This document shows positions 42,039-62,655 of a DNA stretch of 64,000 bases, in pieces. The position numbers and the translations under genes are program-made. The stretch lies in contig NC_134843.1 of NCBI RefSeq assembly GCF_965363235.1, positions 3,100,001 through 3,164,000 of the forward strand, written 5' to 3'. Below the pieces are notes generated by a model that was not told where the DNA came from, did no database searches, and saw only the letters and a program-made list of their open reading frames with translations. How positions within the stretch are numbered: the stretch's first letter is position 1; every line of letters begins with the position of its first letter. Source of the stretch: Mytilus galloprovincialis (Eukaryota > Mollusca > Bivalvia > Mytilida > Mytilidae).

Positions 42039-45000
42039 TCAATCTTGAACCATCATTGATCTAACAGTGTTCTCAAAAGATCTGTAAAAGATAAAAATAA
42101 TGTAAATATATAAAGGGTATTTTAAACACATGAAAATAAACAAGAATAAAAACTTGAATAATTCGAAAGGGTTCTGCAGAACCCAGAGTCTCACCTACTT
42201 TATGAATCTAATAAATATTTTAAGAATTTTAACTGTAGACTGTATATAATGTTAACTGGAAGAAAAACTAAGTCCATTTATAAGTAATTTATGGAAAAAC
42301 AGAAAATATTTTTCTTTCTTGATACTAGCTTTTGATGATTAACAAAATTCTGTCCAAGTTTGGTACAATTCCAGGATAAAAAGTTATGCAAATTATCAAA
42401 CTTAACCATAGTGAGGGCATAGTTTACTGGCAGAAACTGTCTATTTATAATAAAAATATGAATAAACATGATTTATTTTTTACACAATTTACTTCTGGAT
42501 ACTATCTTATGATCATAAACACTTATTTAATATTTCCAAAGGGCGTAACTCATTTAAAACTAGAGGCTTTTAGAGCCTGTGTCGTTCACCTTGGTCTATG
42601 TGCATATTAAAAATAGGACACAGATGGATTCATGACAAAATTGTGTTTTGGTGAAGGTAATGTTTTTGTAGATCTTACTTTACTGAACATTCTTGCTGCT
42701 AAGTGCTTACAATTATCAATTATCTCTATCTATAATGAACTTGGCCCAGTAGTTACAGTGGAAAATATTTTGTAAAAATTTACAAAATTTATTAAAATTA
42801 TTAAAAATTGAATATAAAGTGCAATAACTCCTTAAGGGGTCAATTGACAATTTTGTTCAAGTTGACTTATTGGTAGGTCTTACTTTGCTGTACATTATTG
42901 CTGTTAACAGTTTATCTCTATCTATGATAATATTCAAGATAATAACCAAAAGCTGCAAAATTTTCTTAAAATTACCAATTCAGGGGCAGCAACCCAACAA
43001 CAGGTAAAAACTGCATTTCATCCTATGTACTATTTCAGCCATAACCGCCATCTTAACTCGTGGGTGGGGTCATCGGACACAATTTTTAAACTTGATACCC
43101 TAATGATGATTGTGGACAAGTTTAGTTAAATTTGTCTTAGTAGTTTTACGAAAAATTGTTAAAAATTGCCTATAAAGAACAATAACTCCTTAAGGGATCA
43201 ACAGACCAATTAACTTATTTGTAGATCTTACGTTGCTGAACATTATTGCTGTTTACATTTTATCTCTATCTATAATAATATTCAAGATAACCAAAAAACG
43301 GCAAAATTTCCTTAAAATTACCAATTCAAGGGCAGCAATATACCGACTGGTTTAGGTTATCCGATTCAATTGAAAATTTCAGGGCAGATAGATCTTAACC
43401 TAATAAACAATTTGAACCCTGTCAGATTTGCTCTAAATGATTTAGTTTCAGAGATATAAGCCAAAATCTACATTTTACCCCTTTGTTCTATTTTAAGACA
43501 TGGTGGCCATCTTGGTTGGTTGGCCAGGTCAAGGGACACATTTTTGTCGAGCCTTCGACTTTAGTCGAAAAAGCGAGACTAAGCGATCCTACATTCCGTC
43601 GTCGTCGGCGTCGGCGTCGTCCACAAATATTCACTCTGTGGTTAAAGTTTTTGAAATTTTAATAACTTTTTTAAACTATACTGAATTTCTACCAAACTTG
43701 GACTGAAGCTTGTTTATGATCATAAGAAAGTATCCAGAAGTAAATTTTGTAAAAATAAAATTCCATTTTTTCCATATTTTACTTATAAATGGACTTAGTT
43801 TTTCTGTGAGGAAACATTACATTCACTCTGTGGTTAAAGTTTTTAAAATTTTAATAACTTTCATAAACTATCCTTGATTTGTACCAAACTTGGACAGAAG
43901 CTTGTTTATGATCATAAGATAGTATCAAGAAGAAAATTTTGTAAAAATAAATTTCCACTTTTCCGTATTTTACTTATAAATGGACTTAATTTTTTTGCCA
44001 GAAACAAAACATTCACTCTGTGGTTTAAGTTTTTAAAATTTTTATAATGTTCTTAAACTATCCTGGATTTCTACCAAACTTAGACAAAAGCTTGTTTCTG
44101 ATCATAAGATATTATTCAGAAGTAAATTTTGTAAAAAAAAATTCACTTTTTCCGTATTTTACTTATAAATGGACTGAGTTTTTCTTCCAGTTAACATTAC
44201 ATACAGTCTACAGTTAAAGTTTATAAAACATTTATTAGATTCATAAACTATCCTGGATTTTTTTACCAAACTTGGAAGCTTCTTTCAATCAAAAGACAGT
44301 ATCGAGAGGGAAATTTTTAGTGATGTTTTTCCTCATTTTTGTTGAGTCTGCGATTAACAGCAAAAGTAGGCGAGACACTGGGTTCCGTGGAACCCTTATG
44401 AATTTTTTTAAACTAGATACCTCCAATGATAATTGTGGCCAAGTTTGGTTAAATTTGGCTACGTAGTTTCAGAGGAGAAGATTTTTGTAAAAGTTAACAA
44501 CGACGGACGATGACAGACGACGGTCACCTAGAGATGAGAAAAGCTCACTTGGCCATTCTGGTCAGGTGAGCTAAAAAGTCGATTGTACCTGTGAGAGCGT
44601 TAACGAGGCCCTTTTCCATAAATACCGGTATGTACTTACTTTGATGTTATATTTTCTCCAGGTGTGTACTTACTTTGATGTAATATTTTCACCAGGTGTG
44701 TACTTACTTTGATGTTATATTTTCACTAGGTGTGTACTTACTTTGATGTTATATTTTCTCCAGGTGTGTACTTACTTTGATGTTATATTTTCTCCAAGTG
44801 TGTACTTACTTTGATGTTATATTTTCTCCAGGTGTGTTCTTACTTTGATGTTATATTTTCTCCAGGTGTGTACTTACTTTGATGTTATATTTTCTACAGG
44901 TGTGTACTTACTTTGATGTTATATTTTCCCTAGGTGTGTACTTACTTTGATGCTATATTTTCTCCAGATGTGTACTTACTTTGATGTTATATTTTCCCCA

Positions 45001-48000
45001 GGTGTGTACTTACTTTGCTGTTATATTTTCTCCAGGTGTATACTTACTTTGATGTTGTATTTTCACCAGATGTGCTTACTTTGATGTTATATTTTCTCCA
45101 GGTGTGTTCTTACTTTGATGTTATATTTTCCCTAGGTGTGTACTTACTTTGATGTTATATTTTCACCAGGTATGTACTTACTTTGATGTTATATTTTCTC
45201 CAGGTGTGTACTTACTTTGATGTTATATTTTCACCAGGTGTGTACTTACTTTGATGTTATATTTTCTCCAGGTGTGTACTTACTTTGATGTTAAAATTTC
45301 TCCAGGTGTGTACTTACTTTGATGTTATATTTTCACCAGGTGTGTACTTACTTTGATGTTATATTTTCCCCAGGTGTATAAAATGGATTACATATCATGT
45401 CAACATAGGCGTTATGCAACTTTCTAAACATCTGAAAAAAGAAAAACAAAATAATCTAATGATTGCAGAATGAAGGAACAATGTATGTAAAACATTCACA
45501 GTGGAAGAAATACTCCCAAATAAACTTTCCTTAAACCATTGCAGCAATTTTTTGAGTTAAATAGATAAAAAACTGACAAAATTAAGAAAATAATACAGTC
45601 AGAGCCATGAATCTGCTAATGAAAAAGAAAAATGGTAACATTGAAAACAGATACAATGTAATCACCAGGGAAGACATATGTGTATTTCTTTGCTGCCACA
45701 TTGATATTATAGTTGTTATGACAAAGTTCTACAAATTACTTATCATCCTTCATACACAATCTCAGCTCAGTTTAAATAACTCTTACAGTTTGAATAGATT
45801 AGGAAGTGATGAAGAAGTTCACATTGTTTCAATGGCTCTAAAAAATTCGTAAGGGTTCCACGGAACCCAGTGTCTCGCCTACTTTTGCTGTTAATCGCAG
45901 ACTCAACAAAAATGAGGAAAAACATCAATTAATTTCCCTCTCGATACTGTCTTTTGATTGAAAGAAGCTTCCAAGTTTGGTAAAAAATCCAGGATAGTTT
46001 ATGATCTAATAAATGTTTTATAAACTTTAACTGCAGACTGTATGTAATGTTAACTGGAAGAAAAACTAAGTCCATTTATAAGTAAAATACGGAAAAAGTG
46101 ATTTTTTTTTTTACAAAATTTACTTCTGAATAATATCTTATGTTCAGAAACAAGCTTTTGTCTAAGTTTGGTAGAAACCCAGGATAGTTAAAGAACATTA
46201 TAAAAATTTTAAAAACTTAAATCACAGAGTGAATGGTTTGTTTCTGGCAAAAAAACTAAGTCCATTTATAAGTAAAATACGGAAAAGTGGAAATTTATTT
46301 TTACAAAATTTTCTTCTTGATACTATCTTATGATCATAAACAAGCTTCTGTCCAAGTTTGGTACAAATCGAGGATAGTTTATGAAAGTTATTAAAATTTT
46401 AAAATCTTTAACCACAGAGTGAATGTAATGTTTCCTCGAAGAAAAACTAAGTCCATTTATAAGTAAAATACAGAAAAGTGGAAATTTATTTTTACAAAAT
46501 TTTCTTCTTGATACTATCTTATGATCATAAACAAGCTTCTGTCCAAGTTTGGTACAAATCAAGGATAGTTTATGAAAGTTATTAAAATTTTAAAATCTTT
46601 AACCACAGAGTGAATGTAATGTTTCCTCGCAGAAAAACTAAGTCCATTTATAAGTAAAATACGGAAAAAATGGAATTTTATTTTTACAAAATTTACTTCT
46701 GGATACTTTCTTATGATCATAAACAAGCTTCAGTCCAAGTGTGGTAGAAATTCAGTATAGTTTAAGAAGTTATTAAAATTTCAAAAACTTTAACCACAGA
46801 GTGAATATTTGTGGACGCCGCCGACGACGGAATGTAGGATCGCTTAGTCTCGCTTTTTCGACTAAAGTCGAAGGCTCGACAAAAAGGTTCTGATTCAATT
46901 CTTATTGACACCCTTTTAAAATACCAAAATTATAGTTCAGTACACCAGACAAGTGTTTGATCTACATGAGGCTCATTAGTGGTATTCAATTAAAAACAGC
47001 TAGAAGACAAGCCTCGCATTCTACTTGTTATGAAGCCTTATACAAATAAATTAAGTATTTTGAGACAGTGTATAGTTATTCTATAAATAGCTGTATAGTT
47101 ATTCTATATATAGCTGTATTGTTATTCATTATATAGCTGTATAGTTATTCTATATATGCTGTATGGCTGTATTTTTATTCTATACATAACTGTATAGTTA
47201 TTCTATATATGCTGTATGGCTGTATTGTTATTCTATATATAGCTGTATAGTTATTCTTTATATAGCTGTAAAGTTATTCTATATTTAGCTGCAATACTTA
47301 CAGATCTTATTTCATTGTCTCTCAGGGAAGAATTTGTTGATTCTACTACAATGACAAACTTTACTTTAGTGTTGGTTACATAGCCATATCTGAATTCATG
47401 TTAAGAAAGAAAATATCAATATGGAAAATAATTAAGGGATATAAGGCTTTTTTTCAAGGAACAGTAAATCTTAGATGTTACAGAATTTTGTAAGAGTAAA
47501 TTTCAATTTGGCCTTTTTGAAGTTTAAAAAGTTCTGGTTAAATTGCTTTCAAGTTGTATTTTTGCTATAACATAAGCTAAAAATCTTGGACACAGATTCC
47601 TGAAAGATATAAATTATCCTGATTCTTCAATTGTTCCTTACTGTAGTAATGCAAAATATATAAATCCAAACCATATTTTGAAGGGGCACTAGCTACATGA
47701 TATATAAAAAAATTTAAAAAATGATTTTTTTCTTGTTCAATCATCAATGAAAGTGAAAAAGTGGAATAATATATCGCTTTTAGCAGCCAGTAAGGTTCAA
47801 TCTTGTCAAAATCAGCTAAAAACCCCATTGATGATACATTATTCACTTGCAAGTGCATAACTCTACCTCATGGAGAAATCCGTATTAATGTGAACTTCAA
47901 TGAACATGAATTTGACAGCTAGTGCAGCTTTAAGTCACTTCAGAGGAATATAAAATCTCTTTATTCTCATTTGATAAATGTAAGGATACACTTTGTAATC

Positions 48001-52420: not shown

Positions 52421-62655
<10,235 letters not shown>

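Follow-up and report, generated by a model that had tools for sequence, protein, structure and literature searches.

Tandem splice donors at the end of TRAPPC2L exon 4 in Mytilus galloprovincialis and comparable arrays at other exon ends

Splice donor minisatellites in TRAPPC2L and SPT16

The window studied here is a stretch of 64,000 nucleotides of Mytilus galloprovincialis DNA (contig NC_134843.1, positions 3,100,001 to 3,164,000). It contains exons of two genes, TRAPPC2L on the minus strand and SPT16 on the plus strand, and in each of them a minisatellite repeats the splice donor of a coding exon (Table 1). Our main subject is the array that crosses the end of TRAPPC2L exon 4 into the start of intron 4.

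Joined together, exons 3 to 5 match the chain named TRAPPC2L in PDB 7b6d (E 6.9e-25), which we take to be a Drosophila complex, as well as the Pfam family Sedlin_N (3.8e-20). When the exons are joined at donor 1, the first of the array, the alignment to 7b6d is gapless at the junction, and our best inference is that donor 1 is the functional one. The same alignment also covers the residues for which the exon half of the unit codes. Since this coding half is conserved, the array must have grown out of the gene, with the coding sequence as the source and the array as the product; together with the anatomy of the unit, this bears out the original prediction that the array arose at the exon 4/intron 4 border.

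Tandem Repeats Finder (TRF) reports a period of 34, 22.1 copies, 92% matches and a score of 1292. Each unit consists of the last 26 nt of exon 4, ACACCTGGAGAAAATATAACATCAAA, followed across the exon/intron border by the first 8 nt of intron 4, GTAAGTAC. Successive copies are spaced by 34 nt in 20 of 21 cases and by 32 nt in the remaining one, and 14 of the 34 unit positions vary among copies. A near-consensus donor is found in every unit: GTAAG is present in 22/22, with a predicted U1 pairing between -4.5 and -7.5 kcal/mol. The prediction of 22 copies of a 34-bp unit, each carrying the end of exon 4 and GTAAGT, therefore stands for the copies and for GTAAG, whereas GTAAGT itself occurs in 19/22, the sixth intron base being variable (GTAAGA in copies 8 and 16, GTAAGC in copy 9). 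It was literally true, as claimed, that CAAAGTAAG is identical in all copies (22/22, minus strand).

A DNA search with the array returned a single place in the 1.385-Gb assembly, namely the window itself, with a tool that skips very common words. The flanks of the array nearly match each other, with TATACACC on the exon side and GTACATACC on the intron side, and this near match could have been the seed of the first duplication.

Table 1. Positions in the window of the two donor arrays and of the exons around them
Feature	Position	Strand	Basis
TRAPPC2L last coding exon (exon 5), 13 residues after a split codon, and stop	42039..42081	-	Reading of exons
TRAPPC2L donor minisatellite, 22 x 34-bp units, each with the exon 4 end and a GTAAG donor	44627..45377	-	TRF, copy comparison
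Donor 1, GTAAGT, inferred functional 5' splice site	45346..45351	-	Gapless protein when joined there
TRAPPC2L exon 4, 80 nt, the last 26 nt being the exon half of unit 1	45352..45431	-	Protein match
TRAPPC2L exon 3	47302..47389	-	Protein match
SPT16 exon, its end being the exon half of the 25-bp unit	54912..55076	+	Pfam, PDB match
SPT16 donor minisatellite, 12 units, mostly 25 bp, each AAG or AGG then GTATGT	55065..55358	+	TRF, copy reading
Next SPT16 exon, in frame from the first donor	55628..55687	+	PDB match

The introns that flank exon 4 measure 1870 nt (intron 3) and 3270 nt (intron 4). They also hold a large inverted repeat (43538-44408 and 45840-46888) on either side of exon 4 and the array, with arms of up to 400 nt at 95% identity and several shorter blocks at 94-100%. 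In the transcript the arms could pair into a long hairpin that places exon 4 in its loop; skipping of the exon or formation of a circular RNA might be promoted as a result. A separate tandem array (47067-47291, periods of 23-76 bp) starts 10 nt inside intron 3, beside the exon 3 donor at 47301. On the plus strand of 44629-45376 each unit looks like a 3' splice acceptor (TTATATTTTCTCCAG then G), probably as a by-product.

In SPT16 the array unit resembles ACAAGGGATAAG in the exon followed by GTATGTAATAGAG in the intron. The exon that it ends matches Pfam FACT-Spt16_Nlob (4.5e-17), and its flanking introns measure 399 and 551 nt. Three SPT16 exons joined at their first donors match SPT16 of PDB 5umt (E 2.4e-38), with an alignment that is gapless at the array junction and has one two-residue gap elsewhere. 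Further down the same intron, a 36-bp array of 3.1 copies (55505-55617) stops 10 nt short of the next exon, so that tandem arrays adjoin the splice sites at both of its ends.

Arrays at exon ends elsewhere in the genome

We searched the assembly for patterns of three donor words separated by gaps of 6-36. Triple AGGTAAGT occurs at 245 places; the 100 listed form 22 arrays, all of which were read, and 10 of these end a coding frame. Triple AGGTATGT occurs at 688 places, and the 100 listed form 18 arrays, of which 14 were read (three of the others belong to one repeat family and the fourth falls within a locus read before), with 7 at exon ends. Thus 17 of the 36 donor-containing arrays read outside the window sit at the end of a coding frame and, with the SPT16 array, they do away with the idea that TRAPPC2L is the sole case. 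The arrays among the matches listed run in contig order, from the contig labelled here C1 to C5, and are not a random sample; exon status was judged by visual inspection of an open frame, mostly accompanied by a plausible acceptor.

Homology at E < 0.001 was found for nine of the 17 (loci L037, L042, L044, L046, L048, L051, L054, L056 and L067), the matches being to FLVCR, poly(A) polymerase, sialin, TSP1, MORN, BORCS8, SNF2, ECM29 and 5'-nucleotidase. L050 gave a weak match to EGF (0.0047), and L032, L040, L049, L059, L062, L063 and L065 had no Pfam match at 0.01. Joining at the first donor gives a gapless junction in the protein alignments of sialin and poly(A) polymerase too, as it does in the window. 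Behind the exon of L032 there are up to about 37 near-identical units.

Mirror cases at exon starts were sought among arrays of the acceptor word TTTTCAGG. Five of the 20 were read as exon starts, none of them on C1-C4: L084, L085 and L087 are the firmer ones, in which the last copy precedes an open frame, and L080 and L083 are uncertain. A Pfam search of the three firmer cases gave no match.

Three other loci deserve mention. From position 2965 of L037, units of ~42 bp carry an acceptor-like TACAG, then CGGCTGAG, then the donor GTAAGT 8 nt on, and could be read as 8-nt microexons. In L036 (C1:118395200-118401200) a 36-bp repeat whose frame stays open for 102 codons or more (SSSSYNSTG...) holds AGGTAAGT or AGGTATGT, so that donor words may lie within a possible coding repeat. 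A 43-bp array with TGTATGGA covers at least 8.8 kb (C2:29541962-29550766, G000) and supplies the bulk of the matches listed in the search that met it.

Donor bases within the arrays

The original prediction held the donor bases to be specially conserved, and proposed comparing substitutions at nine of them with those at the other 25 positions of the unit. In the TRAPPC2L array the nine bases, chosen post hoc, give a Fisher P of 0.004, which rises with less biased choices to 0.050 for the standard -3..+6 window and 0.062 for the longest invariant run. In a wrap-around alignment, the donor window takes a mid-rank of 0.22 among all rotations.

Our main test applied this alignment to 29 arrays, 16 at exons and 13 others, after setting aside L033, L035, L038, L043 and L047 (few copies or irregular) and L040, L042, L052 and L059 (too short). 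Donor mismatches amount to 39/1349 against 194/4784 in the rest of the unit for the exon arrays, and to 20/704 against 67/2318 for the others. The mean donor mid-rank is 0.376 for exon and 0.461 for other arrays, a leaning towards quieter exon donors with P 0.22, in a set where all arrays except the two in the window were found via intact donors and are thereby biased towards donor conservation. An ungapped, donor-centred comparison of exon with other arrays gives P 0.038, by a method biased towards mid-unit positions, which is where the donor was set. The claim of special conservation is therefore not established, either in the TRAPPC2L array under less biased choices or across the 29 arrays.

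Donor words in tandem arrays

Counts in the assembly are 39,604 for AGGTAAGT and 72,798 for its reversed control TGAATGGA, 49,074 for AGGTATGT and 82,731 for its reverse, and 78,510 for TTTTCAGG and 66,579 for its reverse. Per 10,000 occurrences, triple patterns are found at 62 places for AGGTAAGT (reversed 40), 140 for AGGTATGT (reversed 47) and 10 for TTTTCAGG (reversed 19). Because such places are clumped, we counted arrays instead. On C1-C4 there are 21 AGGTAAGT arrays and 18 of the reversed word, an approximately two-fold excess per occurrence (P 0.0185, with genome-wide word counts as exposure), and 12 TTTTCAGG arrays with 8 of the reversed word (P 0.66); on C1 and C2 up to 29.55 Mb, AGGTATGT has 7 arrays and its reverse 6. 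Among the reversed control words themselves the rates span a two-fold range (18 per 72,798 and 8 per 66,579), and the donor excess is therefore a hint only. A strong donor enrichment in arrays was not found.

At exon borders, C1-C4 hold 10 AGGTAAGT arrays at exon ends against 0 TTTTCAGG arrays at exon starts (11/12 read), with P 0.002 at an assumed equal exposure and 0.037 at an assumed ratio of 2:1. Taken as shares of arrays, the donor and acceptor figures do not differ significantly (Fisher P 0.16 and 0.20, with 3 unread donor and 2 unread acceptor arrays entered as non-exonic), and we regard the contrast as suggestive only.

How many such arrays would chance provide? TRF on 125 kb of loci L032-L051 finds 3 arrays with a period of 14-44 and at least 3 copies outside the central part, and the genome may be taken to have about 250,000 introns. 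By this rough estimate, chance would put an array across the donor in a few hundred genes, and an equally rough scaling of the pattern counts is of the same order. A special driver is not needed, and a mild one may exist.

Donor choice and reading past the first donor

The pairing of the 22 TRAPPC2L donors with U1 is predicted at -7.0 kcal/mol in 18 cases, -7.5 in a single one and -4.5 in three. Being nearly equal for most copies, these energies imply that strength cannot single out donor 1. Reading past it meets AAG TAA, an immediate stop, as the original prediction had said. Counting the 2 arrays of the window and the 17 elsewhere, 18 of 19 exon-end arrays run into an in-frame stop beyond the first donor, and in 11 of the 19 it comes ahead of the next GTAAG or GTATG, while L062 has no in-frame stop within the stretch examined. 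The modal unit length is divisible by three in 4 of the 19. Stops in nearly all arrays and few multiples of three thus give no sign of frame-keeping isoforms, and are as expected if later donors make no protein.

It had also been proposed that later donors yield isoforms subject to nonsense-mediated decay. In TRAPPC2L the distance from stop to junction would be 30 nt for donor 2, 64 nt for donor 3 and more beyond. By the usual 50-nt rule, if it applies to this animal, only donors 3-22 would produce decay targets; the proposal thus keeps its force from donor 3 on, whereas a product of donor 2 would escape.

Discussion

We favour, with a probability of roughly 0.7, the view that the TRAPPC2L array arose when an ordinary minisatellite expanded over an exon/intron junction, and that it is tolerated because, under exon definition, the first among equal donors is chosen. 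A tandem duplication over the exon 4/intron 4 border would have extended into the intron; exon 4, between long introns, would be recognised as a unit, and the donor nearest its acceptor would win. The other 21 donors would then be mostly silent decoys and the array close to neutral, with rare use of a later donor giving a protein that ends in ...NITSK and lacks the last 13 residues. In our opinion, the array has most likely been tolerated and not selected.

That donor 1 should be favoured follows from the rule for exon definition between long introns given in PMC9225289. When two identical strong donors competed between 365-nt introns in that work, all five minigenes used the upstream one exclusively, and among near-equal human donors between long introns the upstream one was favoured. 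The 3' splice sites also prefer upstream, less so under exon definition, so that arrays of acceptors would be harder to tolerate.

Several observations weigh against our view. The donor AAA/GTAAGT of TRAPPC2L (-7.0; the slash marks the border) is predicted to be weaker than CAG/GTAAGT (-13.2), the donor of the PMC9225289 minigenes. The same source puts the upstream preference among near-equal human donors at ~60% overall, and reports that weakened donors led to exon skipping in larger constructs. Furthermore, downstream repeat units of a minisatellite in the human gene IFI6 do serve as donors (PMC4526556), and the approximately two-fold excess of donor words in arrays (P 0.0185) is something that strict neutrality does not need.

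The rival explanation that survives best, in our judgement an unlikely one, is that later donors are really used, that translation stops at the TAA, and that transcripts from donor 3 on are degraded, so that array length would tune the dose of TRAPPC2L. The near-equal pairing of most donors, the immediate stop and the IFI6 precedent are all in keeping with such a brake; the exclusive upstream choice in the exon-definition minigenes (PMC9225289), the lack of significant donor conservation and the presence of comparable arrays in unrelated genes speak against it. Quite unlikely is a role of the array as a landing pad, in which U1 bound downstream at uncut sites would help exon 4 to be recognised, its own donor carrying A at -1. 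A modified U1 bound downstream of a donor is known to correct exon skipping (PMC4822034), and 22 predicted U1 sites lie within 750 nt; yet arrays also follow donors ending in AG, and here too one misses a significant conservation of the donors. We consider very unlikely a purposeful use of donor 2, in the manner of IFI6, for a TRAPPC2L without its last 13 residues: the stop just 30 nt ahead of the donor 2 junction would let the product escape decay, whereas one or two units would do for this, not 22, and the predicted pairing of donor 2 is no better than that of the others. An array inflated or collapsed in assembly is the most improbable option: the array is known from one assembly, but its copies differ at 14/34 positions, its length is about 750 bp and similar arrays stand at many other exon ends.

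A wider proposal would be that exon-end donor arrays form a genome-wide class, perhaps in a few hundred genes, commoner at 5' splice sites than elsewhere and rarer at 3' splice sites, whose copy number sets the frequency of premature stops and whose length commonly causes expression to vary; we find this doubtful.

The choice of the spliceosome among equal donors has so far been studied with designed pairs, and this genome offers a natural test. RNA reads from this species could reveal whether the first donor always wins, and whether a growing array of decoys has a cost. Donor arrays may also push gene annotation into false alternative donors.

As for precedents, the human gene IFI6 (6-16, G1P3) has a minisatellite with a unit of 12 bp that, as Turri, Cuin and Porter reportedly found in 1995, supplies several splice donors. 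The arrangement of TRAPPC2L, which the original prediction held not to be a standard annotated feature, thereby has a precedent. The work of Turri et al. on IFI6/G1P3 is cited in PMC2572611 and PMC4526556, the latter stating that two downstream repeat units act as donors and give rise to three mRNA species. In our literature search for donor arrays only these IFI6 citations fitted, among the matches listed and judging by titles and abstracts. The TRAPPC2L array is structurally similar, in that a minisatellite offers several donors in one transcript. Unlike in IFI6, its unit has 34 bp, reading on leads to an immediate stop, and the arrangement recurs in many genes; moreover, the later donors of TRAPPC2L are not known to be used. 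The literature searched held no report of many such arrays in one genome, and the novelty seems to lie in the recurrence across many genes of a single genome.

Repeats in earthworm metallothionein (PMC12783039) were considered as a parallel and rejected, since they are intron-internal with units of about 180 bp. Two other systems come closer. With that of PMC9225289, TRAPPC2L shares the presence of equal donors after an exon flanked by long introns, with 22 natural copies in place of designed pairs. With intron gain by tandem genomic duplication (PMC4974935, PMC3443670), it shares a splice-site sequence that is carried along in the duplication. The sense strand of the array contains common AG contexts without a pyrimidine tract and, in contrast to intron gain, TRAPPC2L keeps its existing intron while the donor is multiplied.

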